Shown: positions 5,989 through 29,968 of the stretch, one piece after another | Position numbering within the stretch: the stretch's first letter is position 1 | Layout: each line of letters starts with the position of its first letter | Assembly (NCBI GenBank): GCA_017412045.1 | Contig: JAFQOX010000010.1 | Location: forward strand, 1 to 41,578 | Direction: 5' to 3' | Length of the DNA: 41,578 nt | Source: Clostridia bacterium | Lineage (GTDB): Bacteria; Bacillota; Clostridia; Oscillospirales; CAG-272 | The notes under the pieces: generated by a model | Databases searched by the model: none | Told to the model about the DNA's origin: nothing | What the model saw: only the letters and a program-made list of their open reading frames with translations | Translations under genes and position numbers: made by a program

Positions 5989-6001
5989 TTTTCGCACAAG
6001 G

Positions 6002-6029
6002 TTGATTTATTGAAATTTTCTGATATAAT
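6002..6029 (+). promoter_or_regulatory. Candidate sigma-A promoter for the queG-addB operon
   Basis: TTGATT (6002-6007) is followed by a 16-bp spacer and TATAAT (6024-6029). It would give a leader of about 160 nt before the TTG start of queG. The -10 is perfect and the -35 partial. The other part of this intergenic region (6030-6196) holds no gene I can support. Confidence 0.5.
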
Positions 6030-6196
6030 CAATATAGGCGCGTGTTTTCCGCTTCTGCGTGAAACGGACGCATTGTTATTATAGCACATATTCACCGCGG
6101 AATCAAGGAATTTTTTTGGAAATAATATTGAATTTTCGATTTATTTTTCGCGCTTTCACTATTTTTCATATAGATGCGCCAAGGGAGGACCGATGC

Positions 6197-7018: not shown

Positions 7019-7032
7019 TAGGAGGACGTGCT

Positions 7033-7776: not shown

Positions 7777-7809
7777 TTTATAAGAACTAAAAGCAAAGGA
7801 GGAAGCATC

Positions 7810-10800: not shown

Positions 10801-11055
10801 GAGCCGATGCTGGAGGGTCGTTATATTCCCGTAAAAGAAAAGAATCTTGCCGACGGGAAGTCGGTCAGCGGCGCGGCGCTGATCGGAGAGGGTGCGTTTG
10901 CCGACCTGAAGCAGGAGGTCACGGACGTGATCCTGAAATACGCGGCGGAGCTGAAGAAAGGCGTTGCCTGCGCAAAGCCGCTGGAAAACAAAAAGATCTC
11001 TTCGCCCTGCGAATACTGTAAAATGAAGGCGGTTTGCCGTGCATCCCGCCAATGA
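7810..11055 (+). CDS. addB: ATP-dependent helicase/nuclease subunit B (AddB)
   Basis: AddB is the second subunit of AddAB, which resects double-strand breaks and loads RecA in Firmicutes. The 1081-residue length is typical. The N-terminal P-loop GKTGSGKT covers residues 7-14. The RecB-type nuclease motifs lie near the C-terminus: GSFMHGVLE, a GKIDRVD segment and VVDYKTG. The iron-sulfur staple is complete, with C756 (FIKCRFSYFC) joined to C1066, C1069 and C1075 (CEYCKMKAVC), the same Cys-x2-Cys-x5-Cys spacing as in Bacillus AddB. Start is TTG, 33 bp after the previous gene, with an AAAGGAGGAA ribosome site. Its usual partner addA is not adjacent and is absent from the window. Confidence 0.95.
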   Translation: MIHFIYGKTGSGKTTAVFAEMARAAEKGKVYLLVPDREAVAAESRAAELANAQNIDVLTFGRLCNYIFRRWGGLCVDYIGAGAKKLIMRNVIKSLAPALREYGKTNHFGVFEKLTEFRSACYHDKIDPSALVEASRIIGDTTPLGAKTADLGLIFSTFDQDVSARFEDPDGMLSSAYALLKEHDFFSGTDVFIDSFSTFSMQQYDILENIFRYADNVTFTFPFVREDKNEPSVAVLAETERRVRTTAQKAGAGRIEETVLRESRRYRSEALRFLAENIERSKSAAWDEDKVPADIRIVRASNSFSEAEAVAQDICRAVRSGVRYREIAVIVRETAPYEGILDAVFRKYEIPYFLSSRKEISEKPLIKLIFSAFSIAERGFRGSDVIAYIKTGYSGITADEVSLFENYIVKWNLRGKAFTDGEPWNMHPRGYGATFTEEDTERLRVLSEIRERVIEPLKAFSAAGKSISTVPERASLLFEFLTALGVPAMLEQKAAEAAARGQAALAAETVQLWKVFCGALDQIVASCGQTEATVSEFSQMLSTVLLETDIGKIPTSVDEVTISGAAQKIPGEHRYVYIVGAEEGKFPMRVGEKGLFSEHEKSLLKTHGVELSDRMERGASEELYYFYRAATLASERLHISFAHYNFSGDEQFPSVGIKRVCALFKGLKTEDFESFDAESRIESKKASFEKSTSVGGNLGRALREYYEADEGYARKMKYMKTPLGAQGCALSEENAELLFPGRLSASYSRLEKFIKCRFSYFCEYELKLRDYDPASFGAPDIGSFMHGVLEKTVQWIADGGEGDIGENIRHIAGEYVSEIFHMPPELVPKRLAHLFDYLCRSAEVFAKRIKAEFEVSSFRPRDFELTIGREGDAVEPLRLESGEVSVELRGKIDRVDTYEDGDGRLFVRVVDYKTGTKTFSLENVKLGLDTQMLLYLFSIWENGEKRYGADPVPAAVLYAGIKPPQVDMKVGEDTAAFEGELETSGLFLKNEDVLRAMEPMLEGRYIPVKEKNLADGKSVSGAALIGEGAFADLKQEVTDVILKYAAELKKGVACAKPLENKKISSPCEYCKMKAVCRASRQ

Positions 11056-11102
11056 TATACCGTCAAACCATAGTTTTTTGAAAGTGAAAAGGAGGTTTTT
11101 TC

Positions 11103-12950: not shown

Positions 12951-13597
12951 GAGTGAAATTTTCCAAAACGGGAAGTCTGAAATTTATTTCTCATCTGGAT
13001 CTGAACCGCACGGTCAAATCCGCATTCCTGCGCTCCAAGCTTCCGATCTGGTATACGAAGGGCTTCAACCCGCACCCGAAAACGGTCTTTTCCGTACCGC
13101 TCTCCGTCGGAACGGCGAGTCTTTGCGAATTCATGGATTTCAAGATCACGGAGGCGGTTCCCGGTGAAGTGATCTGCGCGACGCTCAATTCCGTCTTTCC
13201 CGACGGTCTGCGCGCGATCGAGGCGTACGAGCCGACCTCCAAATTCCACGACATCGGATGGGCGGATTACGAGATCCGTCTGGAGATCGCCAACGCCGAA
13301 ACGTACGTGGAGCGCGTGAAGTCCGCGCTGAACGAGCCGATCGTGATCGAAAAAACGACGAAGATCGGCACGAGAACGCTGGACGTTTCCCCCTTCGTCA
13401 AGGTCCTCTCCGTCACGGAGGAAAACGGCGAGCTCGCGCTTCGCGTGAAGCTTTGCTGTGACGACGCGAACTTCGTCAATCCCAAATACGTGATCGAATT
13501 TCTCACGGGAAAATTGGGCGTTCCGGGCGAGCGCGACGACTATTCCGTTTGCCGTACGGCGGTATACCGCGAGGACGGCGTGACACCCTTTAAATAA
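12926..13597 (+). CDS. DUF2344 / TIGR03936 radical SAM-associated protein
   Basis: This 223-residue protein starts with the family hallmark, a KIRVKFSKTGSLKFISHLDL-like segment and GFNPHPK (about 50). It contains no Cys cluster and is thought to act with the radical SAM protein encoded immediately upstream, with which it overlaps by 25 bp in another frame, implying translational coupling. In some species the two are fused. Its ATG follows GGGAGGTGAACGCTC. Molecular function is unknown. It closes the queG-addB operon. Confidence 0.88.
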   Translation: MLSGPQKIRVKFSKTGSLKFISHLDLNRTVKSAFLRSKLPIWYTKGFNPHPKTVFSVPLSVGTASLCEFMDFKITEAVPGEVICATLNSVFPDGLRAIEAYEPTSKFHDIGWADYEIRLEIANAETYVERVKSALNEPIVIEKTTKIGTRTLDVSPFVKVLSVTEENGELALRVKLCCDDANFVNPKYVIEFLTGKLGVPGERDDYSVCRTAVYREDGVTPFK

Positions 13598-13606
13598 ATG
13601 ATTTTA

Positions 13607-13656
13607 CAGCCTGCTTTTTGTTTGAATACAGACCAAAATCAAACAAAAGCAGGCTG
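13607..13656. terminator. Long dyad after the DUF2344 gene
   Basis: CAGCCTGCTTTTTGTTTGA (13607-13625) pairs with 13639-13656, with one bulged T and a 13-nt loop. It sits 9 bp after the operon's last stop codon. The U-tract is poor, so termination may be weak; a transcript-end structure is the simplest reading. Confidence 0.6.
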
Positions 13657-13690
13657 AATATCGTATAAAATTAAATTTGTTGAAAAGTCC

Positions 13691-13719
13691 TTGCATTTTT
13701 CGCTATTGTATGTTATGAT
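13691..13719 (+). promoter_or_regulatory. Promoter of the YerC-type repressor gene
   Basis: TTGCAT (13691-13696), a 17-bp spacer and TATGAT (13714-13719) lie upstream of the YerC-type gene. A 7-bp inverted repeat, TATGTTA and TAACATA (13709-13728, 6-bp spacer), covers the -10 element and would suit an autoregulatory operator. Confidence 0.6.
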
Positions 13720-13749
13720 GTTAACATATATACGAAGAAGGTGATGGTT

Positions 13750-14049
13750 ATGGGTAAAAAAGCGGCAGACGAAAAAATTGATCTCCTCTTTGAAGGGATT
13801 CTGACGCTTCGCACCAAGGAGGATTGCGAAAATTTCTTTGGTGATCTTTGTACGAAAACGGAGCTTCGCGAAATGTCAAAGCGGCTTTTCGCGGCGAAAT
13901 TGATCTCCGATGGCGCGAAATACGCGGATATTGTGGAACAGACGGGACTCAGCACCGCCACCATTACGCGCGTGAACGGTTGTCTGAGAGACGGAAACGA
14001 CGGCTACGTTCAGGTTCTCGACCGTCTTTTCGGCGCGCAGTCCGATTGA
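13750..14049 (+). CDS. yerC: YerC/YecD family TrpR-related protein
   Basis: This 99-residue protein belongs to the YerC/YecD branch of the Trp-repressor superfamily. The region LISDGAKYADIVEQTGLSTATITRVNGCLRDG (split here by domain: helix one to about residue 65, recognition helix about 66-80) fits the TrpR-type helix-turn-helix. Ligand and targets are not established for this branch, and a direct tryptophan role should not be assumed. I chose the ATG at 13750 because GAAGGTGAT lies just upstream and overlaps the two earlier in-frame starts. The gene has its own promoter with a dyad over the -10, and an SDR gene follows 24 bp downstream. Confidence 0.85.
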   Translation: MGKKAADEKIDLLFEGILTLRTKEDCENFFGDLCTKTELREMSKRLFAAKLISDGAKYADIVEQTGLSTATITRVNGCLRDGNDGYVQVLDRLFGAQSD

Positions 14050-14073
14050 TAACGTAAAGGAATGGATACGTAT

Positions 14074-14829
14074 ATGAAAAAAACAGCGATTGTAACGGGC
14101 GCTTCCAGAGGCATCGGCAGGGCGATTTCCCTGAAGCTTGCCGCAGACGGTTTTATTGTGATTGCGGCGGCGCGCGCGGATGAAGAAAAGGCGGCGGATT
14201 ATATTTCCGAGCTGAAGGCGATCTCCCCCGAGTCGGTCTACGTGCCGACGGATATTTCCTCGGATACGGCAAGAAAAAATCTCGTGGATACGGCGTTCAG
14301 ACTCTTTGGCAGATTGGATATCCTCGTCAATAATGCGGGGGTTGCACCCCTCGTTCGCCGTGATATTCTGGAAATGGACGAGGAGAGCATGGATCGGCTT
14401 CTTGACATCAATCTGAAAGGCACGTTTTTCCTGACGCAGTACGCGGCAAACAAAATGATCGAAAACCGTTGCGGTGAGGCGATCGTGAACGTGACCTCCA
14501 TGTCTGCCTATACCGCAAGCGTAAGCCGAGGCGAATACTGCATTTCCAAGGCGGGACTTGCGATGGCGACGGAGCTTTTTGCCGTCCGTCTTGCAGAATA
14601 TGGCATCAACGTTTACGAGATCCGGCCGGGCATTATCCGCACGGATATGACGGCGACCGTGACCGAAAAATATGAAAAACTGATTGCGGAAGGCTTGCTT
14701 CCGATTGCCCGTATGGGCGTTCCCGAGGATATTGCCAAGGCGGTTTGTGCGCTGGCATCGGGCGCGCTTCCTTATTCCACGGGCGAGGTCATCAATATAG
14801 ACGGCGGATTCCATATCCGTACGTTGTAA
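14074..14829 (+). CDS. SDR-family oxidoreductase (FabG-like)
   Basis: This 251-residue classical short-chain dehydrogenase/reductase has the cofactor motif TGASRGIG (residues 8-15), NNAG in the central fold, a catalytic Ser near 142, and Y155-x3-K159 (YCISK). The C-terminal INIDGGFHI is typical of FabG-like reductases, often named 3-oxoacyl-ACP or 3-ketoacyl-CoA reductases. No other fatty-acid gene is adjacent, so the substrate is open. The ATG at 14074 is preferred over the one at 14062, which abuts the AAAGGA ribosome site. A strong terminator follows. Confidence 0.85.
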   Translation: MKKTAIVTGASRGIGRAISLKLAADGFIVIAAARADEEKAADYISELKAISPESVYVPTDISSDTARKNLVDTAFRLFGRLDILVNNAGVAPLVRRDILEMDEESMDRLLDINLKGTFFLTQYAANKMIENRCGEAIVNVTSMSAYTASVSRGEYCISKAGLAMATELFAVRLAEYGINVYEIRPGIIRTDMTATVTEKYEKLIAEGLLPIARMGVPEDIAKAVCALASGALPYSTGEVINIDGGFHIRTL

Positions 14830-14843
14830 TGTACACAATCAAA

Positions 14844-14868
14844 GGCGATACTCCCGTATCGCCTTTTT
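14844..14868 (+). terminator. Rho-independent terminator after the SDR gene
   Basis: GGCGATAC (14844-14851) and GTATCGCC (14856-14863) form an 8-bp stem with a 4-nt loop, followed by TTTTT. It closes the yerC-SDR transcript. Confidence 0.85.
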
Positions 14869-14905
14869 GCGTATTTGAATACGGATTTACAGAAAAGAGG
14901 GCGTT

Positions 14906-15364
14906 ATGAAACATAAACTGTATGAATCGTTAAAAGCAAAAATACTTGAGGATTTGATGGGAATATTGCTGGCAGTTGTTCTGTGGGGGCTTGTGGCATC
15001 GGGGGTGATACCCAAGGTATTGACGGATATTACACAGTTTATGATGCCGCTGGTGGTAATTTTGGCAGTATGTCTGACCGTGAAAGCCTTGTATAGCTTT
15101 CATATCTCTATGAAAGATTATTTTGCTTATATGAAGAAAAATTCCTGTGAAACGACGACCGCCGAGGTTGTTGATATCCGGGAAAGACGCACGAAATACC
15201 GCACGTATGAATATCCCGTTGTTCGTGACGTTACGACGGGAAAAGAAGTGGTTTTGGTTCTCGCTGATATGAAGGATGTGAAAAGAGGCAGGACATATAC
15301 CTTTCTTTATCTGAAACATACAAGAATCGGTGTTATGTCTTCGGTTATTTGGGAGGAGGAATGA
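14906..15364 (+). CDS. Small membrane protein, DUF3592-like
   Basis: This 152-residue protein has two predicted membrane helices (about residues 17-36 and 42-68). A soluble C-terminal domain of about 75 residues follows, with the pattern EVVDIRERRTKYRTYEYPVV. That resembles the DUF3592 type of small beta domain that follows membrane helices, but the match is weak. Start ATG follows AAAAGAGGG. It stands alone between a terminator and the flavoprotein gene. Function unknown. Confidence 0.65.
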   Translation: MKHKLYESLKAKILEDLMGILLAVVLWGLVASGVIPKVLTDITQFMMPLVVILAVCLTVKALYSFHISMKDYFAYMKKNSCETTTAEVVDIRERRTKYRTYEYPVVRDVTTGKEVVLVLADMKDVKRGRTYTFLYLKHTRIGVMSSVIWEEE

Positions 15365-15504
15365 TTTTGATAAAAATTCAGCAGCTTTTTTGGGGGGTGA
15401 GAAAACTGTGCGGGGTTCAGTCTTGATTTGAACCGTGATCAGTCCTGAAAGACGGATATTTTCCCCGAAGTAGAAAGAAGCAAACGCTTCGGAAAGGACT
15501 TTTT
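15365..15504 (+). other. Intergenic leader before the flavoprotein gene
   Basis: This 140-bp stretch has no gene. GGTTCA and TGAACC (around 15414-15433) form a small dyad, and CCGAAG / CTTCGG (around 15463-15492) form a stem just ahead of the AAAGGA ribosome site. No known riboswitch consensus was recognised, and no promoter is convincing. Confidence 0.35.
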
Positions 15505-17451
15505 ATGAACTATATTTCTGTCGGCGGTTGGAAAATACCGCATTTTACGACCTCCGCCGCGGTCGTCGGTACGGGTGCCGCGGGCTATAATGCGGCGGAT
15601 TCTCTCTATTCTCTCGGCGTGACGGACGTGCTCATCATCACGGAGGGCAGAATGATGGGAACGTCGAGAAACACCGGCTCGGATAAGCAAACCTACTATA
15701 AGCTCAATCTTTCGGGCGGTGTGAAGGACAGCGTTTACGATATGGCGAAAGCGCTCATGCGCGGCGGCTCCATGCACGGCGATATCGCGCTGACGGATGC
15801 GGCGCTTTCCGCAAGGGGCTTTTTTAAGCTCGTCGGGCTCGGCGTTCCGTTTCCGATGAACGAATACGGCGAATACGTCGGCTATAAGACCGACCACGAC
15901 GAAACGACCAGAGCGACCTCCTGCGGTCCTCTGACGTCGAAATATATGACCGAGGCTCTGGAGCGGACGGTATTTGCCAAGGGGATTCCCGTCTATGACC
16001 GCCATCGCGTGATTCGCATATTGACGGAAAACGGCGAGGCAAAGGGCTTGCTGACGCTTTGTCCTTTGGAAGCGAACGGGGAAAACCCGATGGGGCTTTG
16101 TCTGTTTTCTGCGGGCGCTGTCGTTTACGCGGTCGGCGGACCTTCTGCGATTTACGCGGATACCGTCTATCCGCCGAGCCAGACCTGTTCCATGGGCGCG
16201 GCGTTTGCGGCGGGCGCTCTCGGCGCGAATCTGACGGAATCGCAGTACGGACTCGCCTCCGTGGATTTCCGTTGGAATCTTTCGGGAACGTATCAGCAGG
16301 TTTTGCCGCGTTATATTTCCACGGATGAAAACGGAGAGGACGAAAGGGAATTTCTTCGCGAAGCGTTTGAAAGCGATGAAGAAATGCTCCACGCGATCTT
16401 CTCCAAGGGCTACGAATGGCCCTTTGACCCGAAAAAGACCGTTGCGGGCGGTTCCTCCCGCGTGGACCTTGCCGTGTTCCGCGAAAAGCAAAGGGGCAGG
16501 CGCGTCTTTCTGGATTACCGCAGAAATCCCTCTGCCGTGGATGATAACGGCGCTCTGCGCGTCGAAAAGCTCTCTGAAAAGGCAAGAGAATATCTGACGA
16601 ATTCGAACGCGCTTCTGCCGACACCGATCGAGCGTCTGGAAAAGATGAACCGTCCCGCCATTGATCTTTACGCCTCCCACGGTATTGATCTGTATACGGA
16701 ACGATTGGAGATCGCCGTCTGTGCCCAACACTGCAACGGCGGGCTTGCCGTGAAAAACACGAGAGAGAGCGTTTCGCTGGAGAATTTCTATGCGGTCGGC
16801 GAATGCGCGGGCACCTTTGGCGTTTACCGTCCGGGCGGCTCGGCGCTCAATTCCACACAGACGGGCAGCCTGTTTGCCGCGATTGCGATTGCCAAAAAGA
16901 AAAAAGCCTTCGCTCTGCCGAGCGAGGCTGTGCTTTCCGATATTACAGATGAGATCAAAATTCTCTGCGGTATGACGGGCGGCGATCTGTCGAGAAACGA
17001 GATCCTTTCTCGCCGTGAGGAGATGGGCAAGCGGATGTCCGCGTGCGCGGCTTTCCTTCGCAATGAAGACAAGCTCCGACTTGCGTTTGACGAGTGCAGA
17101 GAGGAACTTCTGCGTTTTGAAAAGGATTACCGATTGCGGGATGCCTCTTGCATGACGGATGCCATGATCAACCGCGATATTTTGCAGACGCAGCTCGTTT
17201 ATTTCGGCGCCATCCTTGATTATATCGCCGACGGCGGCAAGAGCCGCGGCTCATATCTGCTTGTGCGGGACGGTGACGGCGATCTGCTTTCGGCAGTTCC
17301 CGAAATTGATACGGCGCACGCCGCATTCGTGCAGAATACGGCGCTCGGACATGATCTTACCGTAAAGTCGTTTTTTGAGCCTGTAAGAGCGCTTCCCGAA
17401 AGTGACCAGTGGTTTGAGAACGTGTGGAATCGGTTTCGTAAAGAAAACTAA
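15505..17451 (+). CDS. FAD-binding oxidoreductase, fumarate reductase/aspartate oxidase-like flavoprotein
   Basis: This 648-residue flavoprotein has an N-terminal dinucleotide fold G22-x-G24-x-x-G27 (VVGTGAAGYNAA). A later FAD segment near 430 reads FYAVGECAGTFGVYRPGGSALN, where GE and RPGGSA match the FAD/substrate-closing region of the succinate dehydrogenase/fumarate reductase flavoprotein family. The C-terminal helical part (about 470-610) also fits that superfamily. No iron-sulfur or membrane subunit and no nadA/nadC gene is nearby, so it is probably not a respiratory complex, and L-aspartate oxidase is not supported by context. The physiological substrate is unknown. The ATG follows GGAAAGGAC by 5 nt. 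Confidence 0.8.
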   Translation: MNYISVGGWKIPHFTTSAAVVGTGAAGYNAADSLYSLGVTDVLIITEGRMMGTSRNTGSDKQTYYKLNLSGGVKDSVYDMAKALMRGGSMHGDIALTDAALSARGFFKLVGLGVPFPMNEYGEYVGYKTDHDETTRATSCGPLTSKYMTEALERTVFAKGIPVYDRHRVIRILTENGEAKGLLTLCPLEANGENPMGLCLFSAGAVVYAVGGPSAIYADTVYPPSQTCSMGAAFAAGALGANLTESQYGLASVDFRWNLSGTYQQVLPRYISTDENGEDEREFLREAFESDEEMLHAIFSKGYEWPFDPKKTVAGGSSRVDLAVFREKQRGRRVFLDYRRNPSAVDDNGALRVEKLSEKAREYLTNSNALLPTPIERLEKMNRPAIDLYASHGIDLYTERLEIAVCAQHCNGGLAVKNTRESVSLENFYAVGECAGTFGVYRPGGSALNSTQTGSLFAAIAIAKKKKAFALPSEAVLSDITDEIKILCGMTGGDLSRNEILSRREEMGKRMSACAAFLRNEDKLRLAFDECREELLRFEKDYRLRDASCMTDAMINRDILQTQLVYFGAILDYIADGGKSRGSYLLVRDGDGDLLSAVPEIDTAHAAFVQNTALGHDLTVKSFFEPVRALPESDQWFENVWNRFRKEN

Positions 17452-17467
17452 ATCATCTGAAATATGA

Positions 17468-17516
17468 TAAAATATCCGAATCAATTGCTTGTAAAACCTT
17501 TGCTTCGGATATTTTA
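17468..17516. terminator. Bidirectional terminator between convergent genes
   Basis: TAAAATATCCGAA (17468-17480) pairs exactly with TTCGGATATTTTA (17504-17516) between the flavoprotein gene and the convergent XRE gene. The A/T-rich outer ends supply a U-rich 3' side in both directions. Confidence 0.7.
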
Positions 17517-17525
17517 TATGGAATT

Positions 17526-17822
17526 TTACGTTTGATTGATAAAGCGGTGTAAAGATTCTTGAAGTTTTGCGCTTTCCTCAATAATCTGTTTTATTAAGAA
17601 CTCTTGATCTTCTTTTATAAAAGTATTATAGTCCGTCCTTCCGACAAGGTAATCAATGGAAACCTTAAAATAATCCGCAAGCTTGATGAGCGCAAAGCTA
17701 TCGGGATAGGTTTTCCCCGTTTCATAATTTGAAATGGTTCTTTGATCGATGCCGACTGCGTTGGCAAGGTCGATTTGACGCATATCGGCGTCTTCGCGTA
17801 GATCTTTGATTCGATTTTTCAT
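17526..17822 (-). CDS. XRE-family (Cro/CI-type) transcriptional regulator
   Basis: This 98-residue protein has an N-terminal lambda-repressor-like helix-turn-helix (about residues 5-62: MRQIDLANAVGIDQRTISNY, then the YETGKTYPD and SIDYLVGRTD hallmarks). A short helical tail follows, probably for dimerisation. It is divergent from the RCC1-like gene and separated by 164 bp that contain several ATACC half-sites over a consensus promoter, so it is likely the local repressor of that operon. ATG start with a GAGGA ribosome site. Confidence 0.88.
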   Translation of the reverse strand: MKNRIKDLREDADMRQIDLANAVGIDQRTISNYETGKTYPDSFALIKLADYFKVSIDYLVGRTDYNTFIKEDQEFLIKQIIEESAKLQESLHRFINQT

Positions 17823-17887
17823 ATAACAAATCCTCGGTATGTTTTTGTTTTTTTACTATAATTTTAGTATTTTTTCGCTTGTATATC

Positions 17888-17916
17888 TTGACATACCAAA
17901 AATAATCGTATATAAT
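17888..17916 (+). promoter_or_regulatory. Full-consensus promoter of the RCC1/JAMM operon
   Basis: TTGACA (17888-17893), a 17-bp spacer and TATAAT (17911-17916) match the housekeeping consensus in all twelve positions. Such a strong promoter beside a repressor gene suggests tight repression. The leader to the ATG at 17987 is about 64 nt. Confidence 0.85.
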
Positions 17917-17939
17917 CATGATATACCAATTATATGGTA
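17890..17939. promoter_or_regulatory. Putative XRE operator half-sites
   Basis: ACATACCA lies at the start of the promoter spacer. The pair TACCA / TGGTA (about 17924-17939, 6-bp AT-rich centre) lies just downstream of the -10. A further GGTATG is found at about 17835-17840, close to the XRE start codon. Repeated ATACC units around both divergent start regions fit operators for the neighbouring regulator. Confidence 0.45.
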
Positions 17940-17986
17940 AGCAAGGGTTGTATGGTGAAAATTTAAACAAAAGGGGGACTGAAGTA

Positions 17987-20347
17987 ATGACAGAAACGCA
18001 AAGACACCATGGAAAATATGGATTCATTAGAGATAGGCTTGATTGCGGTTGGTATCACGTTGCCGGTTTGTTGGATGATGGTACTGTAAAGGCTTACGGT
18101 GGGAACAATGCAAACCAATGCGAGGTATCTGATTGGGCAGACATTATAAAAATAAAATGCGGTTCTTTTCATACTCTTGGTTTGAGAAGAGATGGAACTG
18201 CATTGGCGACGAAAGGCGAGGTTTTTGAGGACGATAAAAGGATTCCGGGCGAGGGCATCGAAAAATTCAGTGGTGTTGTTGATATTGCTTGCGGTGCATT
18301 TCACAATATAGGTTTAAGAAGCGATGGTACGGTTGTTGCATGTGGCTTTAATGATGAAGGTCAGTGTAACGTGGAAAATTGGAAGAATGTTAAAAATATA
18401 TATGCAGCTCTCTATCATACGATTGCGATATGTAACGATGGATCATTGGTTTATTGCGGCAAGAATGACGGTGGCTCCTTGAATCTGAGTAATATTTCGG
18501 GTGTTAAAAAATTGTATTGCGGAATGAATGATACTGTAATCGTCACAGAAGACGATAAAGTTTACATTACAGACTATAATCATGAAACGCCTGTTTGTAT
18601 TGATGTTATCGGTAATGAGATCATGCGGGTAGAGTTTCATGTGGAGTATTTCCTGATATTGAAAACGAATGGAACAGTAATGCATTTCGGAAGCGAAGAT
18701 CATGGTTTGGCACAGGTAAGCCAATGGAGAGGTATTCTTGATATTGTTTGCGCAAGAAAGGTTGCCAGCGGTTATACGAAAGATCGTATATATATGACAG
18801 GAGATAATGGCATTCGTACTATGGAGCCCATAAAGGATACGGTCTTGAATCTTCATTCTGAAACAATAGATGTTTTTGTCAAAAAAAACGGAGCTGTTCT
18901 TGTGTTTAATCAAAAATCAGGTGAGGTAGTCGGAACATTTAGGCTTTATGAAATGCTTCCTTATCATGTGGATATCCAACAAACTCATTTATATAAATCC
19001 GGAATCGCATGGGAATATAAAGAGAAATACGATTATTTGAAGCAAAGGGTTTCTTGCGGTTTTGGTCACGGCGCTGTCGTTATGTATGATGGAACTGTTA
19101 GGGCTTGCGGCTCAAATACATGTGGACAGTGTGATGTTGATGATTGGGTAAATATAAAATCTGTTATTTGTACTGCGGGTGCAACTCTTGGACTTTCTCA
19201 TGAGGGTGCCGTTTATTTTGCAGGTCAACTTCCTCTGTCGGATAGTTATGTTGCCGAAGGATTACATCCTTCCAAATGGCCTGATAACGTAAAATTGATT
19301 GTGAAAGCAGATAGCACGGAAGAACATGTGTTAGGACTTTTGGATAACGGACAAGTCGTTGCATACGGATGCAATGATGATGGACAATGCGAAGTTCAAA
19401 ATTGGCGGGATATTGTTGAAGTTTGCGCTCAGCGCGCTCTTAGCGCAGGCGTTCGAAAAGATGGAACGGTAGTTGTTTGCGGAAATGATACCGCAATCAA
19501 AGATATCATTTCAACGTGGACCGATATTGAGCATATTTTCAATGGTAGTAGTGCGCAATCTTTGATAGGCTTGAAAAATGACGGCACCGTTGTAACGACA
19601 GAATCGGAATTGGCATCGAAATTGTCAAATTGGAGAAATATTATTGATATTTCTGCAGAGGCACCTTGTGTTGCCGGTATTACGGGCGATGGTCATATTT
19701 ATTTTGCAGGTAAAAAAGTTTCTAAGGATATGGAATTTGAAGGTGTGGATGATGCATTATCGGTGCATGTCGGCGGTACGCCCTTTTCTATCATATCAAT
19801 AATAAAAAATAATAAAACGCTTCAACGGTTTATTATTCAGAACGGCGAAATAGAAACGGAAGATATTGACAGCGAGTTTTTGTTTGTTAAAGATGAATTT
19901 ATGCAAAAAATACATGTTTTTGCCGATGGAGAAGTATTGGTTACTGCAATGCTTGAAGATATGGACATGGGGCAAGACGATTGGGGGGACAATTGGCAAT
20001 TGATCAAACCGGAGACACCAAAATCTGCTCAAAATTCCTCTGATAACAATGAGTCTTCGGGAACACAACAATCTTCCAATGGCTGTTATGTTGCAACTTG
20101 TGTCTACGGCTCTTATGATTGTCCGCAGGTATGGGCTCTTCGCCGTTATCGGGACAACACTCTTGGCTCCACATGGTATGGCAGATCGTTTATCCGCGCG
20201 TATTATACGGTCAGCCCTACGCTTGTAAAATGGTTTGGCAATACCCATTGGTTCAAGAGTCTTTGGAGAGGTAAGCTTGACCGTATGGTTGCGAAGTTGA
20301 AAGCGGACGGCATCGAAGATACACCTTATGAAGATAAAAATTGGTAA
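17987..20347 (+). CDS. Large RCC1-like repeat protein with C-terminal CFI-box-type domain
   Basis: This 786-residue protein is made mostly of RCC1-like blade repeats of about 38 residues, with the pattern CGxxHxxGLxxDGTVxxxG-N-x-GQCxVxxWxxI. I count about 14, enough for two seven-bladed propellers, with a linker near 340-355 (HVDIQQTHLYKSGIAWEYK). An acidic/Ser-Gln linker (about 660-698) leads to an 88-residue C-terminal domain. It begins GCYVATCVYGSYDCP and continues with LRRYRDNTL and a GRSFIRAYYTVSP segment, which match the CFI-box-CTERM type domain (usual start GCFIATAAYGS). No signal peptide is seen, so it is probably cytoplasmic, perhaps a protein-binding scaffold. ATG 17987 follows AAAAGGGGGAC. 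The gene is clearly more AT-rich than the genes to its left, suggesting acquisition by transfer. Confidence 0.75.
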   Translation: MTETQRHHGKYGFIRDRLDCGWYHVAGLLDDGTVKAYGGNNANQCEVSDWADIIKIKCGSFHTLGLRRDGTALATKGEVFEDDKRIPGEGIEKFSGVVDIACGAFHNIGLRSDGTVVACGFNDEGQCNVENWKNVKNIYAALYHTIAICNDGSLVYCGKNDGGSLNLSNISGVKKLYCGMNDTVIVTEDDKVYITDYNHETPVCIDVIGNEIMRVEFHVEYFLILKTNGTVMHFGSEDHGLAQVSQWRGILDIVCARKVASGYTKDRIYMTGDNGIRTMEPIKDTVLNLHSETIDVFVKKNGAVLVFNQKSGEVVGTFRLYEMLPYHVDIQQTHLYKSGIAWEYKEKYDYLKQRVSCGFGHGAVVMYDGTVRACGSNTCGQCDVDDWVNIKSVICTAGATLGLSHEGAVYFAGQLPLSDSYVAEGLHPSKWPDNVKLIVKADSTEEHVLGLLDNGQVVAYGCNDDGQCEVQNWRDIVEVCAQRALSAGVRKDGTVVVCGNDTAIKDIISTWTDIEHIFNGSSAQSLIGLKNDGTVVTTESELASKLSNWRNIIDISAEAPCVAGITGDGHIYFAGKKVSKDMEFEGVDDALSVHVGGTPFSIISIIKNNKTLQRFIIQNGEIETEDIDSEFLFVKDEFMQKIHVFADGEVLVTAMLEDMDMGQDDWGDNWQLIKPETPKSAQNSSDNNESSGTQQSSNGCYVATCVYGSYDCPQVWALRRYRDNTLGSTWYGRSFIRAYYTVSPTLVKWFGNTHWFKSLWRGKLDRMVAKLKADGIEDTPYEDKNW

Positions 20348-23811: not shown

Positions 23812-23836
23812 AGTATGAATTTTGAAAGAAGTTTCG

Positions 23837-23892: not shown

Positions 23893-24720
23893 ATGAAGGA
23901 ACAACTCGAAGCATTTCGTCAATATTTAAAAAAAGAAGAAAGGGCAGGCGCAACGATCGAAAAATATGCACGGGACGTCAGATGCTTTTTGCAATTTCTG
24001 GACGGACACGAACCGTCGAAGGAGGATGTTCTTGCATATAAGGAATATTTATGTCAACAGTACGCGCCGACAAGTGTGAATGCGGCGCTTTCTTCTTTGA
24101 ACGGTTTTTTTAAGTTTCTCGGAAGACAAGATTTGAAAGTAAAAAACTTGAAAATTCAAAAAAATATTTTTTCCTCTGAAGAAAAAGAGCTTTCCAAAAA
24201 TGAATACGAGAGGCTTGTGGAGAGTGCGATCAGAACAAAAAACGAACGGTTGTCTCTCGTTTTGCAAACGATCTGTTCTACGGGGATCCGTGTTTCTGAG
24301 CTTTCGTATATTACGGTGTCTGCCATTGGACGAGGAATTGCCGATATCGACTGCAAGGGAAAGCGCAGAAGGATTTTTTTGCCGAGTCGGCTTTGTAAGA
24401 TTTTACGAATCTATGTCAACAAGAAAAAAATAAAAAGAGGTCCCGTTTTCGTTACAAAAAACGGCAGACCTCTCGATCGATCCAATATTTGGGCAGAAAT
24501 GAAAAAGCTTTGTATCATTGCGGGCGTTCCGGAAGGGAAGGTTTTTCCGCATAATCTTCGGCATCTGTTTGCGCGCACGTATTACAAGATACAAAAGGAT
24601 ATTGTGAAGCTTGCCGACATTCTTGGGCATACCAATATCAATACAACGCGAATCTATACGATGGAAAGCGGTGAGGCACACAGACGGCAAATCGAAAAAT
24701 TGGGATTTTTACGATGCTAA
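23893..24720 (+). CDS. Tyrosine recombinase, likely invertase of the adjacent switch
   Basis: This 275-residue protein has an N-terminal SAM-like core-binding domain (about 1-85) and a C-terminal catalytic domain. The catalytic set is complete: R133 (TGIRVSEL), a Lys in the CKGKRRR hairpin, H220-x2-R223-H224 (HNLRH), H246 (LGHTN) and Y255 (TRIYT). At 275 residues it is a minimal XerC/D-like enzyme without the extra N-terminal arm-binding domain of many phage integrases. ATG 23893 follows AAGGAAGGAAG; an in-frame start at 23815 lies upstream of the likely promoter and gives a poor N-terminus. Its stop codon is 4 bp from the left inverted site of a 250-bp segment carrying a promoter, the normal layout of a site-specific DNA invertase and its switch. 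Confidence 0.9.
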   Translation: MKEQLEAFRQYLKKEERAGATIEKYARDVRCFLQFLDGHEPSKEDVLAYKEYLCQQYAPTSVNAALSSLNGFFKFLGRQDLKVKNLKIQKNIFSSEEKELSKNEYERLVESAIRTKNERLSLVLQTICSTGIRVSELSYITVSAIGRGIADIDCKGKRRRIFLPSRLCKILRIYVNKKKIKRGPVFVTKNGRPLDRSNIWAEMKKLCIIAGVPEGKVFPHNLRHLFARTYYKIQKDIVKLADILGHTNINTTRIYTMESGEAHRRQIEKLGFLRC

Positions 24721-24724
24721 CGCA

Positions 24725-24750
24725 TACCACATAATTTTGATTATGTGGTA
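24725..24750 (+). repeat. Left inverted recombination site
   Basis: The 26-bp site has 11-bp arms TACCACATAAT and ATTATGTGGTA around the asymmetric centre TTTG (core ATTTTGAT). Its reverse complement equals the right site at 25 of 26 positions, so the two sites are in inverted orientation. Confidence 0.88.
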
Positions 24751-24767
24751 AATGAAGCAACAATCGT

Positions 24768-24796
24768 ATTATAACATCGCAAATTTGAATTGTCAA
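24768..24796 (-). promoter_or_regulatory. Full-consensus promoter inside the invertible segment
   Basis: On the minus strand TTGACA (24791-24796), a 17-bp spacer and TATAAT (24768-24773) match the consensus at every position. In this orientation it reads into the 3' end of the recombinase gene as antisense and away from the lipoprotein gene. Confidence 0.9.
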
Positions 24797-24885
24797 TAGG
24801 ATGATATCGTTTTCTGAACAAGCAATACATAGAAATGAAATCATGTTTTTTCCATTGTTTGTCTACGGTTATTGTTTTTGTGCAC

Positions 24886-24905
24886 AAAAAAGCAGCGCTT
24901 TTTTT
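24886..24905. terminator. Terminator-like hairpin inside the invertible segment
   Basis: AAAAAAGC-AGC-GCTTTTTT forms an A-tract/hairpin/T-tract that can work in both directions. In the present orientation it stands between the recombinase gene and the lipoprotein gene and would block read-through. Confidence 0.5.
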
Positions 24906-24937
24906 ACAGAAAGATAAAAAATGGCGCAAAAAATGCC

Positions 24938-24946
24938 TGCTAATAT
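24938..24946 (+). promoter_or_regulatory. Weak extended -10 facing the lipoprotein gene
   Basis: TGCTAATAT has the TGn extension and a 4-5 of 6 match to TATAAT, with no -35. It might give low-level expression of the lipoprotein in the OFF orientation. Confidence 0.25.
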
Positions 24947-24948
24947 CA

Positions 24949-24974
24949 TACCACATAATCAAAATTATGTAGTA
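24949..24974 (-). repeat. Right inverted recombination site
   Basis: Arms TACCACATAAT and ATTATGTAGTA surround the centre CAAA. It equals the reverse complement of the left site except one base in the outer right arm (A for G). It ends 28 bp before the lipoprotein ATG. Confidence 0.88.
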
Positions 24975-25002
24975 AAAATAAAAACATCAAAGGAGAACAG
25001 AC

Positions 25003-27555
25003 ATGAAGAAAACACTGAAAATTTGCATTTTGCTTTGTCTTTCTGTTTTGCTCTGTCTTGCAATGGCTTCTTGTGATAATTCGACCCACAAGCACGCCTT
25101 TGGCGAATGGACAACGACGAAAGCTGCCACTTGTACTTCAGTAGGCGAACAGACAAGAACCTGCGAATGCGGAGAGACGGAAACGCAGACGATTGTAGCG
25201 AAGGGTCATACGCCCGGAGACGCGGCAACTTGTACGACAGCGCAGATCTGTACGGAATGTGATGCGGTATTGGCAGTGGCAAAGGGTCACGTGCCCGGTG
25301 CGGCTGCAACCTGTACGGCTGCTCAGACCTGCACGGTATGTAATGTAGAATTGGCGGCGGCGAAGGGTCATATCCCCGGTGCGGCTGCAACCTGCACGAC
25401 TGCGCAGAGCTGCACGGTATGTAATGCGGAATTGAAAAAGGCACTTGGTCACAAGGCTGGCGCGGCGGCAACTTGTACAACCGCCCAGAATTGTACCGTA
25501 TGTCATACAGAGCTTGTAGCGGCGATCGGTCACAAAGCGGGCGCTGCAGCAACCTGTACGACTGCACAGAACTGCACGGTATGTAACGCGGTATTGGTGG
25601 CGGCAAAGGGTCATACACCCGGCGCGGCGGCAACCTGTACCACCACGCAAAATTGTACGGTATGTAATGTGACGTTGGTCGCTGCGCTCGGTCACAAGCC
25701 CGGCGCAAACGCGACTTGCACAGAATCTTCCGATTGCACGGTTTGCGGTGAAATTTTGAAAAGCGCAAACGGACATATTCCCGGTGTGGCGGCAACTTGT
25801 ACGACTGCGCAGAATTGTGTTGTATGCAACGTAGAATTGGCAAAGGCTCTCGGTCATAAAGCAGGCGCAGCTGCGACCTGTACGACCGCGCAGAATTGTA
25901 CGGTATGCAATGCAGAATTGGCAAAAGCTCTTGGTCATAAGGCAGGGGCGGCTGCAACCTGCACAACTTCTCAGAGCTGTACGGTATGTAAGGCGGTATT
26001 GGTAAGCTCTCTCGGTCATAAGGCTGGAGCAGCGGCAACCTGTACGACCACTCAGAATTGTACGGTATGTAATGTGGTATTGGTAGCTGCAAGCGGACAT
26101 ACACCCGGCGCGGCAGCAACCTGCACGACTACGCAGAATTGTACGGTATGTAAGGCGGTATTGGCGGCGGCAAATGGACATACACCCGGCGCGGCAGCAA
26201 CCTGCACGACTACGCAGAATTGTACGGTATGTAAGGCGGTATTGGCGGCGGCAAATGGACATACACCCGGCGCGGCTCCTACCTGCACGACCACGCAGAA
26301 TTGTACGGAATGCGATGCGATATTGAAGTCCGCATTGGGTCACAAGCCCGGCGCGGTAGCTACCTGCGAGTCCGCACAGCTTTGTACGGTATGTAATGGA
26401 GAGGTGACACCTGCTTTGCCCCACACTCCCGGTGAGGAAGCGACTTGCACGGAAGATCAGATCTGTACGGTTTGCGAAAATGTAATCACTCCCGCTTTGG
26501 GACACAAATTTGAAATTGAAAATGCAATTTTCACAGCTTTGAAAGCCCCGGCGACCACGGAAAGTGCGGCTATCTATTATAAGTCCTGCGCTTGCGGTGC
26601 GGTCAGCTCGGATGACGCGGATACCTTTACCTTCGGTGATCCCATTGAAGAAACGACACTTCCTCCTGTTTTTGCCCGTTTTGACTTTGGTATGGCATCT
26701 AAGGGCGAGTCGCTCGGTATGACGTCTCACGAATATCTTGTTTATAATCTTACTTATGACGGTTCCTTTATCAGCGTTGATTATACCGCGGATTCTATTA
26801 TTGTCACTGCTCTCAAGGATCATCCCGAAATCGTTCTCGATGGGGAGAACAAAGAAACGCTGAACGGAAGTTACGCTATTAACTCCTATGCGCTTTGCTT
26901 CGAAAACCTCATCACCTACGATTTTGAGGATCAGCTCCTGAAGGATAAGGGATATATCCGATTCCGAATGAAGAATAATTCTGCCAACAATGTTATATCC
27001 TTCCGTTGGAACAAACCTGGTTCTATGTATGCGACAACGATGCTTGCTTCCGGTATGTATCTCCAGGGCGGAACGCCCACGATTGAGGATTGCAACGCAG
27101 GCAATCACAGACTTACCTGTGAAGCATCCGAGGAATACGGTGTGTATACTTACGATATACAATTCCTTGCTGCTATGGGAAGAATGAATTCTCGTGATGA
27201 TGCTAACGCGGCATCCTACGGTGCTATGCTTTCATACGTAGAAAACGGAGGCTCTATTACTTCCAACAACTGGAATTGGTTGGGAACACAAGAGGTTTCC
27301 GCGATTCAGTTCTTCGTGCTCGGTGCGTACGGCGGTTCTGCCAACAAAGCAGGCTTTGCAAACTTTGATACCCGCGCCAATATTGTTGAAGGCGCCAGCG
27401 TAGAAATCGACTACATCCTCTTCGGTGTAAGTCCCGAAGCTTTGAACGGATATACCTCTTATATTCAGGATGAATATAACGAATCCGTTTCTATTTCCAA
27501 CTCCATTTCTATTTCCGAATCTCTGGCTGCTGAGGCAACTTCTTACGCAGGCTGA
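25003..27555 (+). CDS. Repeat-rich surface lipoprotein, predicted phase-variable
   Basis: This 850-residue protein starts with a lipoprotein signal peptide (lipobox LAMASC, lipidated C24), so it is anchored on the outer face of the membrane. Residues 76-507 are sixteen 27-residue repeats, typically TCTTAQNCTVCNAEL then a GHKAGAAA segment. Each has C-x5-C-x2-C-x9-H, a plausible zinc site. Residues 508-850 form a separate beta-rich domain (FDFGMASKGESLGM onward), followed by a Ser/Ile-rich tail (VSISNSISISESL). Such GH-x-PG/TC repeats occur in large surface proteins of gut Clostridia; function is unknown, with adhesion or ligand binding likely. ATG follows AAAGGAGAAC. Expression should depend on the orientation of the switch directly upstream. 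Confidence 0.85.
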   Translation: MKKTLKICILLCLSVLLCLAMASCDNSTHKHAFGEWTTTKAATCTSVGEQTRTCECGETETQTIVAKGHTPGDAATCTTAQICTECDAVLAVAKGHVPGAAATCTAAQTCTVCNVELAAAKGHIPGAAATCTTAQSCTVCNAELKKALGHKAGAAATCTTAQNCTVCHTELVAAIGHKAGAAATCTTAQNCTVCNAVLVAAKGHTPGAAATCTTTQNCTVCNVTLVAALGHKPGANATCTESSDCTVCGEILKSANGHIPGVAATCTTAQNCVVCNVELAKALGHKAGAAATCTTAQNCTVCNAELAKALGHKAGAAATCTTSQSCTVCKAVLVSSLGHKAGAAATCTTTQNCTVCNVVLVAASGHTPGAAATCTTTQNCTVCKAVLAAANGHTPGAAATCTTTQNCTVCKAVLAAANGHTPGAAPTCTTTQNCTECDAILKSALGHKPGAVATCESAQLCTVCNGEVTPALPHTPGEEATCTEDQICTVCENVITPALGHKFEIENAIFTALKAPATTESAAIYYKSCACGAVSSDDADTFTFGDPIEETTLPPVFARFDFGMASKGESLGMTSHEYLVYNLTYDGSFISVDYTADSIIVTALKDHPEIVLDGENKETLNGSYAINSYALCFENLITYDFEDQLLKDKGYIRFRMKNNSANNVISFRWNKPGSMYATTMLASGMYLQGGTPTIEDCNAGNHRLTCEASEEYGVYTYDIQFLAAMGRMNSRDDANAASYGAMLSYVENGGSITSNNWNWLGTQEVSAIQFFVLGAYGGSANKAGFANFDTRANIVEGASVEIDYILFGVSPEALNGYTSYIQDEYNESVSISNSISISESLAAEATSYAG
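25228..26523 (+). repeat. Sixteen tandem 81-bp coding repeats
   Basis: The unit encodes 27 residues. Copies at 26119-26199 and 26200-26280 are identical except for three bases at the end, showing a recent duplication, while outer copies are more degenerate. Copy number is likely to vary between strains. Confidence 0.93.
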
Positions 27556-27575: not shown

Positions 27576-27618
27576 AAAAATCCACTCCATGACGAAAAGT
27601 CATGGAGTGGATTTTTTT
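27576..27618. terminator. Strong bidirectional terminator
   Basis: An 18-bp perfect stem (27576-27593 with 27599-27616) has a 5-nt loop, with A-run and T-run ends. It separates the lipoprotein gene from the convergent Gfo/Idh/MocA gene and ends both transcripts. Confidence 0.93.
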
Positions 27619-27652
27619 CATTACACTGATGAATCGGATGTTGTTCTGTATG

Positions 27653-28939
27653 TTACGCGCGGAACTCCGCGAGGTCAACGGTTCTGCCTTCCTTACGCGC
27701 GGTTTCTGCGGCGTAAACGCAGAGGTGACCCTCAATGGAGTCGTCGATGGAGGTCAGGGAGAGGGAGGGAACGCCCGTGCGGAGATATTCGACGAGGTGC
27801 TTCATGATCTCGTTGTCGCCGCCGCCGTGCTTGCCGTTTTCGGCGCCTTCTTTGGTATCCACGGTTTCGGTATCGTAGAAGTAGCGTCTGCCTTCTCTGG
27901 TGAATACGCGGAGGGTGAATTCGTTATGCTCGAAAACGCCTTCGATCTCGCCGTTGGTGCCGACGATGTGAAGGAAGCGTTCTGCCTTCGCACAAGCACC
28001 GACGAGGTTCAGCGTACCCATCGCGCCGTTTTCAAAGGCAACGATGACGTTCTGGTTGTCCACGATGTCACCGCCCGTGTTGTAAGCGCATTTGCCGTAA
28101 GCGGAGCGCTTCATGTATTCGATCTTTTCTTCTCTGGTGATCGTGTCGATCGGCTTGCCGATGCCCGCCCAGGTCTGGAAGGGCATGGTATCGCGGTCGA
28201 GGTGGATCTTGACGGCGGAATAGTTGCAGGTCTTTTCGTGAGGACAGTCGAAGCAGAGCGCGGTCGCGCCTTCGGGAGCCTTGTCGAGCGTGAAGTTTTC
28301 ACGGAAGCCCATGCTCGTGACGAATTTCGGACGGGTTTCGTTGTTGAGCCAGCAGATCAGGTCCATATCGTGACAGCATTTCGCGAGAAGCAGACCGGAG
28401 CCGCACTCCTCCTCGTTGTTCCATTTGCCGCGGACGAAGGAGTCGATGAAGTGCGCCATGCCGACGTGCTCGGTCAGCATAAGGCTGCGTACTCTGCCGA
28501 TTCTGCCTTCCGCGAGAACCTTTTTCACTGCGGAATAGAAGGGGGTGTAGCGGAGAACGTGGCATACGATGACCTTGCATCCGTTGTCGTGAGCCGCCTT
28601 CTGAATGTCAAGAAGCTCCTCCTTGGTGGGGCAAACGGGCTTTTCCAGAAGAACGTTGTATTTTGCGTTCAGGAGTGCCATGGCGGTGGGATAATGCGCG
28701 CGGTCCATGGTTGCGTCGATAACGATATCGCAGACAACACCTGCTTTGATAAAGTCTTCTACGCTGTCAAACGCCATGCTTTCGGGGAGAGAATAGCGTA
28801 CGCGCGCGGTTTCCTTTTTCAGCGGAACGTTGTCAACGACGGCTACGATCTCCATGTCGTCGGGGTTGCGGAGAGAGTAGTCTGCGTAGATGCAGCCTCT
28901 GTCGCCGCAGCCAAGAAGGGCAACTTTGATCTTTTTCAT
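27653..28939 (-). CDS. Gfo/Idh/MocA-family oxidoreductase
   Basis: This 428-residue NAD(P)-dependent dehydrogenase has the N-terminal Rossmann motif GCGDRG (about 10-15) and the family hallmark EKP in LLEKPVCPTKEE (about 104). The alpha/beta C-terminal domain holds the substrate-site His/Asp segment CHDMDLICW. Family members oxidise sugars, inositols or act on glycosides. The longer-than-usual C-terminal part includes a Cys pair (CFDCPHEKTCNY) typical of a subgroup found in gut bacteria. It is the last gene of the minus-strand run, 21 bp after the Hsp33 gene. Ribosome site AGAAAGGAA. Substrate unknown. Confidence 0.88.
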   Translation of the reverse strand: MKKIKVALLGCGDRGCIYADYSLRNPDDMEIVAVVDNVPLKKETARVRYSLPESMAFDSVEDFIKAGVVCDIVIDATMDRAHYPTAMALLNAKYNVLLEKPVCPTKEELLDIQKAAHDNGCKVIVCHVLRYTPFYSAVKKVLAEGRIGRVRSLMLTEHVGMAHFIDSFVRGKWNNEEECGSGLLLAKCCHDMDLICWLNNETRPKFVTSMGFRENFTLDKAPEGATALCFDCPHEKTCNYSAVKIHLDRDTMPFQTWAGIGKPIDTITREEKIEYMKRSAYGKCAYNTGGDIVDNQNVIVAFENGAMGTLNLVGACAKAERFLHIVGTNGEIEGVFEHNEFTLRVFTREGRRYFYDTETVDTKEGAENGKHGGGDNEIMKHLVEYLRTGVPSLSLTSIDDSIEGHLCVYAAETARKEGRTVDLAEFRA

Positions 28940-28960
28940 GATGAGATTCCTTTCTGTATG

Positions 28961-29833
28961 TTATTTTCTGTTTTTTTCAATATCCTTACGGGTGAAGTAA
29001 TATTTTTTGTCACAGAAGCGGCAGCAGACCTCGATCTTTTCCAATTCGGCAAAGGTCTCGTCCAGCTCTTTATCGGAGAAGCAGGAGAGCGCATCGAGGA
29101 GTCTGCCTCTGTCGCAGTCACAGGTGTATTCCGCGAGAAAATCGTCGAAGAGGTCGTATTCGATGCCTTGCAGGATATACGCCATAACGCTTTCGGGCGT
29201 CATGCCCGCCTCAAACATGGCGGAAACGTTGGTCATGAGGGGAAGGTTCTTCTCCAGCGCGGAGATGGTCTCCTCGTCCGCGAAGGGAAGGAGCTGGATC
29301 ATGATACCGCCTGCGGCGCGGCAGGAGAGGTCGGTATCCACGAGAACGCCGAGCGAGCAAACGGTGGGGATCTGTTCGCTCTGCGCAAAGTATGCGCAGA
29401 TATCCTCGGCGATTTCGCCCGTCGTGATCTCGGCAAATCCGGATTGCGGATCGCCGATGCCCGTATCGCGGATCACGCAGAGCTCGCCCTTGCCGATGAT
29501 GCCGCCGACGTCCAGCTTGCCGTTGGGCTTCAGGGGAAGGTGCGCGTCGGGATTCTGAATATAGCCCTTGACGTTGCCCTTATAGTCGGAAACGGCAAGC
29601 ACGCTTCCCGCGATGCCGTCGCCCTTGAATTTGAGCGTAAGCTTATCATTTTTTTCTTTGAGCATGGTGCCCATGAGCGAAGCTGCCGTCATGACGCGTC
29701 CGAGCGCCGCGGAGGCGGTGGGAGCGGTATGGTGGTAGCGGATCGCGGTATTGACGATGTCGGTGGAATCCATGACGATGATGCGGGCGGCACCGTCTCT
29801 CGTCATGGCGCGAAGAACGTTGTTTTCTTTCAT
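28961..29833 (-). CDS. hslO: Hsp33 redox-regulated chaperone
   Basis: This 290-residue heat-shock protein is a holdase switched on by oxidative unfolding. The C-terminal zinc switch has C-x-C (TCDCDRG) and C-x2-C (CRFC), joined by a linker of about 30 residues. The N-terminal domain begins with the family segment RAMTRDGAARIIVMDSTDIV and contains GRVMTAASLMGTMLK. I chose the ATG at 29833, 11 nt after AAAGGAAG; the ATG at 29884 lies against its only possible ribosome site and adds a poor N-terminus. Its link to the redox module near 22 kb is thematic only. Confidence 0.93.
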   Translation of the reverse strand: MKENNVLRAMTRDGAARIIVMDSTDIVNTAIRYHHTAPTASAALGRVMTAASLMGTMLKEKNDKLTLKFKGDGIAGSVLAVSDYKGNVKGYIQNPDAHLPLKPNGKLDVGGIIGKGELCVIRDTGIGDPQSGFAEITTGEIAEDICAYFAQSEQIPTVCSLGVLVDTDLSCRAAGGIMIQLLPFADEETISALEKNLPLMTNVSAMFEAGMTPESVMAYILQGIEYDLFDDFLAEYTCDCDRGRLLDALSCFSDKELDETFAELEKIEVCCRFCDKKYYFTRKDIEKNRK

Positions 29834-29968
29834 TTCGGTTGTAACTTCCTTTGGGAATAAATTTTGTTTTGCAGACGTTGTCATCCTTCTGCGGTGAGAT
29901 CTTATGCAAACGGGATCCTCGCCGTTTTGCGCTGCTTGTTTTGGGAAAGCATCGGCAGGCGGGCGGAA

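Follow-up and report, generated by a model that had tools for sequence, protein, structure and literature searches.

Tyrosine recombinases that invert promoters are well known. The locus considered here, in which a recombinase gene is followed by a promoter enclosed between inverted repeats in front of a lipoprotein gene, raises the question of whether this arrangement is an invertible switch, which enzyme would act on it and what sets the length of the enclosed segment. The window, the whole 41,578-bp stretch of DNA that was analysed, is the entire contig C158 of its source assembly, and its features are collected in Table 1. Very probably, the promoter segment is inverted by the adjacent recombinase at two dif-like sites, and the lengths of such segments are kept in helical steps. 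Mechanistically, the tyrosine recombinase encoded upstream would invert the 198-bp segment via these sites, while selection would hold the spacing of the two sites to 10.5-bp steps.

Table 1. Features of the switch locus and its flanking genes (positions in the window)
Feature	Position	Strand	Description
Tyrosine recombinase P0001, presumed invertase	23893..24720	+	275 aa; Pfam Phage_integrase (E 8.5e-25) and SAM-like domains
Left recombination site	24725..24750	+	TACCACATAA-TTTTGA-TTATGTGGTA
Invertible segment	24751..24948		198 bp from one 26-bp site to the other; 206 bp if measured between 18-bp motif cores
Sigma-70-type promoter	24768..24796	-	TTGACA-17-TATAAT with TG
Weak hairpin, possible bidirectional terminator	24886..24904		AAAAAAGC-AGC-GCTTTTTT; about -4 kcal/mol
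Right recombination site	24949..24974	-	inverted copy; core identical, single outer mismatch
Cargo lipoprotein P0002	25003..27555	+	850 aa; lipobox (MASC); tandem Cys-rich 27-aa repeats

The geometry of the locus was confirmed as originally predicted: the two inverted sites match at 25 of 26 bases (96%), the left one lies 4 bp past the recombinase stop codon (24718-24720), and the right one ends 28 bp before the ATG at 25003. Each site consists of arms of about 10 bp around an asymmetric 6-bp core, and since the 26-bp sites are otherwise near-palindromic, their orientation is fixed by the central bases alone, in agreement with what had been proposed. The pair is the sole inverted repeat of at least 18 nt in the window (90% identity, spacing up to 1 kb, 11-nt seeds), and when the whole window was shuffled 60 times with dinucleotides preserved, comparable repeats of 18-19 nt arose three times. 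No further copy of the site was found at up to three mismatches elsewhere in the assembly, which comprises 158 contigs and 2.57 Mb and is 87.7% complete. The claim of a full-consensus promoter stood with regard to its sequence, with 12 of 12 positions matching, a 17-bp spacing and an extended TG, but had left its minus-strand direction unstated. As this promoter reads away from the lipoprotein gene, towards the 3' end of the recombinase gene, the assembled form is OFF, a term used throughout for promoters that read towards the recombinase. Inversion would place the promoter ahead of the lipoprotein ATG and drive the gene via a leader of about 65 nt.

The cargo lipoprotein P0002 matched no Pfam family and gave a single NCBIfam match far under its cut-off. 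Its 81-bp (27-aa) repeat, carrying Cys pairs, recurs with constant spacing across 25168-25989, and four more stretches similar to it occur in the same genome. A 752-aa ORF at 27602-29860 on the plus strand is probably spurious, because long minus-strand ORFs lie opposite and it has no Pfam match.

The recombinase gene, complete according to the original prediction, has an intact reading frame. A second in-frame ATG is open at 23815, and the start at 23893 is preceded by a purine-rich stretch resembling a ribosome-binding site. R133, K157, H220, R223, H246 and Y255, which we take to be the expected catalytic residues, show at least 99% conservation across 190 aligned sequences. P0001 scored under the NCBIfam cut-offs for XerA (146.2 vs 220 bits), XerD (124.3 vs 329.6 bits) and XerC (119 vs 335.15 bits). 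Xer chromosome-dimer resolution also uses a single dif site per chromosome, whereas two inverted sites are present here. At E <= 1e-20, matches are found in 89 of the 295 family genomes, its own included; at E <= 1e-60, the order has them in 110 of 394 genomes and the class in 61 of 391. Among 20 named loci, the 18 with at least 49% identity are all titled Clostridia or clostridial genera, Blautia parvula and Anaerotignum lactatifermentans being among the named relatives. No relative was confirmed in the viral contigs searched, and three phage records gave matches, each with at most 44% identity. Relatives were also seen on two large plasmid records of Monoglobus and Pusillibacter, NZ_OY725740.1 (L302) and NZ_AP023421.1 (L303), the Pusillibacter copy being followed by an S-layer homology protein.

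The recombinase-plus-switch cassette was surveyed in 99 loci of a first set, window included, and 151 of a second, all oriented by the recombinase. A site pair was accepted when two copies of ACATAA-N6-TTATGT, with at most two mismatches each, lay within 800 bp 3' of the recombinase stop codon; motif pairs were sought on the 3' side only, and counts were restricted to loci in which the sequence continues for at least 500 bp beyond the stop. Such dif-like pairs are present in 86 of 93 first-set loci (one off-target pair and one duplicate counted) and in 103 of 138 second-set loci, that is, in 189 of 231 together, leaving 42 loci that have room for a canonical pair and lack one. When the 43 loci without an accepted canonical pair were re-examined, 30 had some inverted repeat, 25 passed a looser rule, with variant arms such as ACAAAA/TTTTGT and ACAGAA/TTCTGT, and 13 had no inverted repeat under the looser search. 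First-set medians are 24 bp from stop codon to site and 234 bp for the segment. Three loci were left out of the length and promoter counts: L114 (off-target, with a core match of 1/6), L003 (identical to the window) and L098 (identical to L044). L150 was omitted from the second set as a repeat of L093, and L149 equals L040 in sequence, the two coming from different collections, so the sets are not perfectly disjoint.

A layout with the switch on the 5' side, apparent in 11 loci, was rejected, since the sites fall 3' once the loci are oriented by the recombinase. The best inverted repeat is still 5' in L085, L088, L121 and L128, none of these repeats being dif-like, and L088 and L121 also carry a 3' dif-like pair. 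Some loci (L021/L077, L043 and L041) have more than two copies of one recombination site past the recombinase, an arrangement that might permit segments of several lengths or states. L079 (contig 3 of genome G021, 6000-18000) shows nested inverted repeats of up to 74 nt with equally good promoters at both ends, and may therefore be ON whichever its orientation. In L034 and L039, the first long ORF past the switch resembles, by eye, a portion of another recombinase gene.

Recombination at the sites is indicated first by their cores. Site pairs were picked on arms and position with the cores ignored; between loci, the 6-bp cores share a mean of only 2.5 of 6 positions, whereas within a locus they agree in the inverted sense in 85 of 87 first-set pairs and in 189 of 190 over both sets. 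Counted by letter, 516 of 522 first-set core positions match, against at most 268 in 10,000 re-pairings. None of the 94 unique cores is palindromic, nor are the inner four bases of any (chance 1 in 16). Related loci offer a second line of evidence. The original prediction had proposed a comparison of related genomes, and in two pairs of relatives the whole segment is inverted in one member with respect to the other. L177 and L272 align at 89% along 922 bp of the recombinase flank; the adjoining 254 bp, spanning one site to the other, align at 79.5% on opposite strands. Similarly, in L184 and L182 a flank of 918 bp (84%) is followed by 287 bp that match at 81.5% with the strands opposed, and same-strand similarity resumes downstream (66% over 239 bp). 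Altogether, 11 pairs of relatives were compared: two are completely inverted, four give partial inverted matches of 67-117 bp, two share short end matches only, one shows none, and two have the same orientation. The partial matches are weaker evidence, because they fall in a region that often contains an inverted-symmetric hairpin and so can match on both strands, as some segments do with each other. In addition, promoter orientation differs in 25 of the 79 tree-independent pairs with calls. As read from these alignments, the relatives show inversion in the course of evolution rather than its rate within a population.

That the inverted repeats are mere hairpins, terminators or regulator sites at which nothing recombines is hardly credible: each site is indeed near-palindromic and T-run hairpins lie inside many segments, but a hairpin needs complementarity within a site, yet it is across sites that the cores match, they differ between loci, and in two pairs of relatives it is the segment between the sites that is inverted. 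The conserved layout, the core identity, the lack of palindromic cores and the inverted relatives together make an invertible promoter beside its own tyrosine recombinase well supported at the level of comparative sequence analysis. For the window, in which one orientation was assembled, we infer that the locus itself flips.

Which enzyme acts is a separate matter. The inner dyad CATAA-N6-TTATG resembles dif, and this likeness is what would favour the housekeeping XerC and XerD acting on the sites with the adjacent recombinase as a bystander. We consider this very unlikely. The site pair of this genome adjoins P0001 and none of the six other tyrosine recombinases found there, whose loci of about 3-3.5 kb hold neither an 18-nt inverted repeat nor a site pair. 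Furthermore, relatives lacking the canonical pair, most of which are less similar to P0001, carry different arms, for example ACAAAA/TTTTGT, as would be expected if enzyme and site evolve together. P0001 is presumably the acting enzyme.

The window locus would then be a further promoter inverton, most of whose named relatives belong to Clostridia. A probable counterpart has been described among invertons called from reads: inverton group 139 consists of 33 invertons, all but one from Clostridia (32), that have a tyrosine recombinase close by (invertase group 35), and this pairing is the most significant inverton-invertase link of that study, in which the repeat motif is called novel (PMC11892184). 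Group 139 agrees with the cassette described here in class and enzyme type and is probably the same family, and the portions of that paper considered here make no mention of a helical length rule. According to the sections of PMC5903667 drawn on here, the invertible segments Cdi1-Cdi7 of Clostridioides difficile measure 154-230 bp and are intergenic except Cdi7, and RecV is involved in six of the seven switches; Cdi7 is like the window locus in that a recombinase adjoins the switch, and the Cdi repeats are mutually unrelated save those of Cdi2 and Cdi5. Among the best 10 of 21 plasmid records, PsrA is the only named invertase, with 32.5% identity over 97% of P0001. As described in part of PMC7096588, streptococcal PsrA inverts pieces of hsdS at three kinds of repeat and not a promoter. 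The cargo of the window, in contrast to that substrate, is a lipoprotein, and hsdS is absent from the ten window proteins scanned. The fimS switch and its recombinase FimB involve an enzyme and repeats other than those of the window. In that Escherichia coli system, as outlined in part of PMC9993118, a 314-bp promoter segment is flipped by a tyrosine integrase.

Most segments of the family are 200-300 bp long, and bound sites would therefore have to meet by looping of the DNA between them. Their lengths are not evenly spread. In the first set (n=85), the top length period is 10.6 bp, with R 0.506 at 10.5 bp, while 1500 jittered sets peak at R 0.44 over periods 4-20. The second set (n=103) gives a top period of 10.4 bp and R 0.525 at 10.5 bp, with 1000 jittered sets reaching at most 0.36, and replicates the phase (0.24 vs 0.22 in the first set). 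Loci passing the looser rule (n=25, one with masked bases) behave similarly, with R 0.557, phase 0.30 and a broad peak at 10.3-11.2 bp. Over all 190 segments the best period is 10.50 bp, and 163 of them deviate from the peak by no more than a quarter turn. The spacing between the -10 box and the near site shows the same period, with R 0.66 in both sets and 153 of 172 promoters within a quarter turn of the peak. Control distances behave differently: stop codon to site gives R 0.10 at 10.5 bp in the first set (its own best being 0.29 at 14.4) and R 0.175, slightly above chance, in the second, and site to ATG gives R 0.05 (n=145). The length signal also depends on size, being R 0.68 below 215 bp (n=44), 0.46 at 215-240 bp (n=45), 0.64 at 240-270 bp (n=58), 0.31 at 270-300 bp (n=24, p 0.10) and, in longer segments (above 300 bp), 0.14 (n=19, p 0.67). 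Such fading above 270 bp is what DNA looping between the sites would lead one to expect.

The periodicity might also be a legacy of shared descent, without any selection on looping, and many of the loci are indeed related and some segments homologous. When the first set is reduced to coarse single-linkage clusters, little of the signal is left, with p 0.018 for 19 clusters at 65% identity and p 0.21 for nine clusters at 60%. Against this, pruning the second set of loci with at least 90, 80, 75, 70 or 65% identity to the first leaves R at 0.509, 0.502, 0.501, 0.500 and 0.445, and the 39 loci below 65% retain the same phase (0.225); in 29 of these, promoter distance gives R 0.62, with phase 0.44 instead of 0.56. 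Tree-independent pairs support the period for length (p 0.0004, n=68, differences of 5-110 bp) as well as for promoter distance (p 0.0026, n=37). The similar phase of loci with other arms, the fading of the signal with length and its near absence from the stop-to-site and site-to-ATG distances likewise argue against descent, which alone is an insufficient account of the periodicity and, as the explanation of it, seems decidedly improbable.

The simple reading of the length steps is that two bound sites meet by looping, with DNA twist mattering at such lengths, and looping would then be the cause of the quantisation. For the promoter phase, either a separate constraint between polymerase and recombinase or a by-product of one-turn insertions may be responsible. 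The length R of 0.537 exceeds the value of about 0.35 that independence of the near and far distances would give, and was not reached in any of 5000 shuffles (n=172). A comparable rule is known from Paramecium, where internal eliminated sequences show a size period of about 10.2 bp, ascribed to end-to-end looping by authors who cite helical-twist work on Hin (PMC3464196, in part). That case differs in being eukaryotic excision, probably by a domesticated transposase, with more than 90% of the sequences under 150 bp and no promoter switch. Among the titles and abstract openings listed for the open-licence literature, none reports helical quantisation of natural invertible promoters. The comparison adds a quantitative rule, namely that the DNA helix quantises how long natural invertible segments are. 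From such a rule, genomes would reveal how synapsis works mechanically in living cells, and spacing alone predicts which switches flip fast and which are stuck.

Measured against this rule, the window is an exception. Its segment (206 bp between motif cores) lies 4.1 bp from the length at which the family peaks, and 21 bp separate its promoter from the site, compared with a peak of 26 bp in the family; a single loss of about 5 bp between the promoter and the near site would account for both offsets. Being about half a turn out of step, the switch may flip slowly or be stuck, and the claim of phase variation at this very locus is lowered accordingly. A former inverton, decayed or locked OFF, would fit these spacings, for which one such loss suffices, as well as the mismatch in the arms and the assembly of OFF alone. 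Such decay is nevertheless unlikely, because the recombinase frame, the conserved residues, both cores and the 12/12 promoter are all intact, and an offset exceeding a quarter turn is shared by 26 of the other 189 segments. The preferred reading remains that the locus still flips, and the window switch is a good test case for the helical rule.

Promoter orientation across the family adds a regulatory aspect. Judged by sequence match, 54 of 85 first-set segments carry a promoter scoring at least 11.5 close to an end, compared with 0.1% of shuffles. Of the 190 segments, window included, 119 are OFF, 53 ON and 18 unclear, and with one locus per 80% cluster the figures are about 90 OFF and 46 ON, which may reflect either a prevalence of the OFF state or an effect of assembly. 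As the sites lie close behind the recombinase stop codon, an OFF promoter points antisense into the recombinase gene, and OFF-state antisense transcription could feed back on the recombinase by damping it. Many segments seem to hold an insulator too, given the frequency of T-run hairpins: in a broad scan allowing loops of up to 21 nt, hairpins reading away from the promoter end occur in 87 of 172 segments and those along the promoter direction in 77 of 172, each against 17 of 344 shuffles, with both kinds in 42. A stricter scan (loops of up to 8 nt) found them in either direction in 17 of 84 segments and one of 168 shuffles. The hairpin of the window is weak, and a terminator scan of 24600-25100, which includes it, reported none; stronger ones occur in about half of the family segments. 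A more elaborate scheme, which we offer tentatively and regard as possible but rather less than probable, is that site-to-site and promoter-to-site spacing are both fixed in 10.5-bp steps. The recombinase would join its sites through one direct loop of about 200-270 bp, free of any architectural partner able to relax the phase, and polymerase at the promoter would need a defined face relative to the recombinase at the near site, which would couple transcription to flipping. If true, this phasing, together with an OFF promoter that fires antisense into the recombinase gene, would enable a switch to sense the state it is in and to bias it.

The cargo of these switches is more varied than the single lipoprotein of the window suggests. 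Cargo ORFs, called where a stretch resembling a ribosome-binding site lies ahead and classed by location with crude rules, were obtained in 145 of 190 loci: 16 have a lipobox, 52 a hydrophobic N-terminus and 77 look cytosolic. The original proposal of an invertible promoter beside its recombinase is supported by layout, cores and the two inverted pairs; its reference to surface genes needs correction, since cargo in the family is not mainly of the surface. Scanning the first 400 aa of 141 cargo proteins matched 104 families in total, including TetR (11), Band 7 (9), BspA leucine-rich repeats (7), ResIII-type helicase (7), collagen repeats (6), GGDEF (3) and camelysin (3), a diversity implying that the cassette serves many functions. 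One cassette thus fronts regulators, helicases, secreted and surface proteins and enzymes, and phase variation in the bacteria that carry it may extend far past the cell surface. In L033, L105, L116, L122, L130 and L139, the same kind of helicase lies directly past the switch, and the seven ResIII-type cargo proteins match PADLOC models, for example PbeA and type IV restriction; these helicases are possibly phase-variable phage defence.
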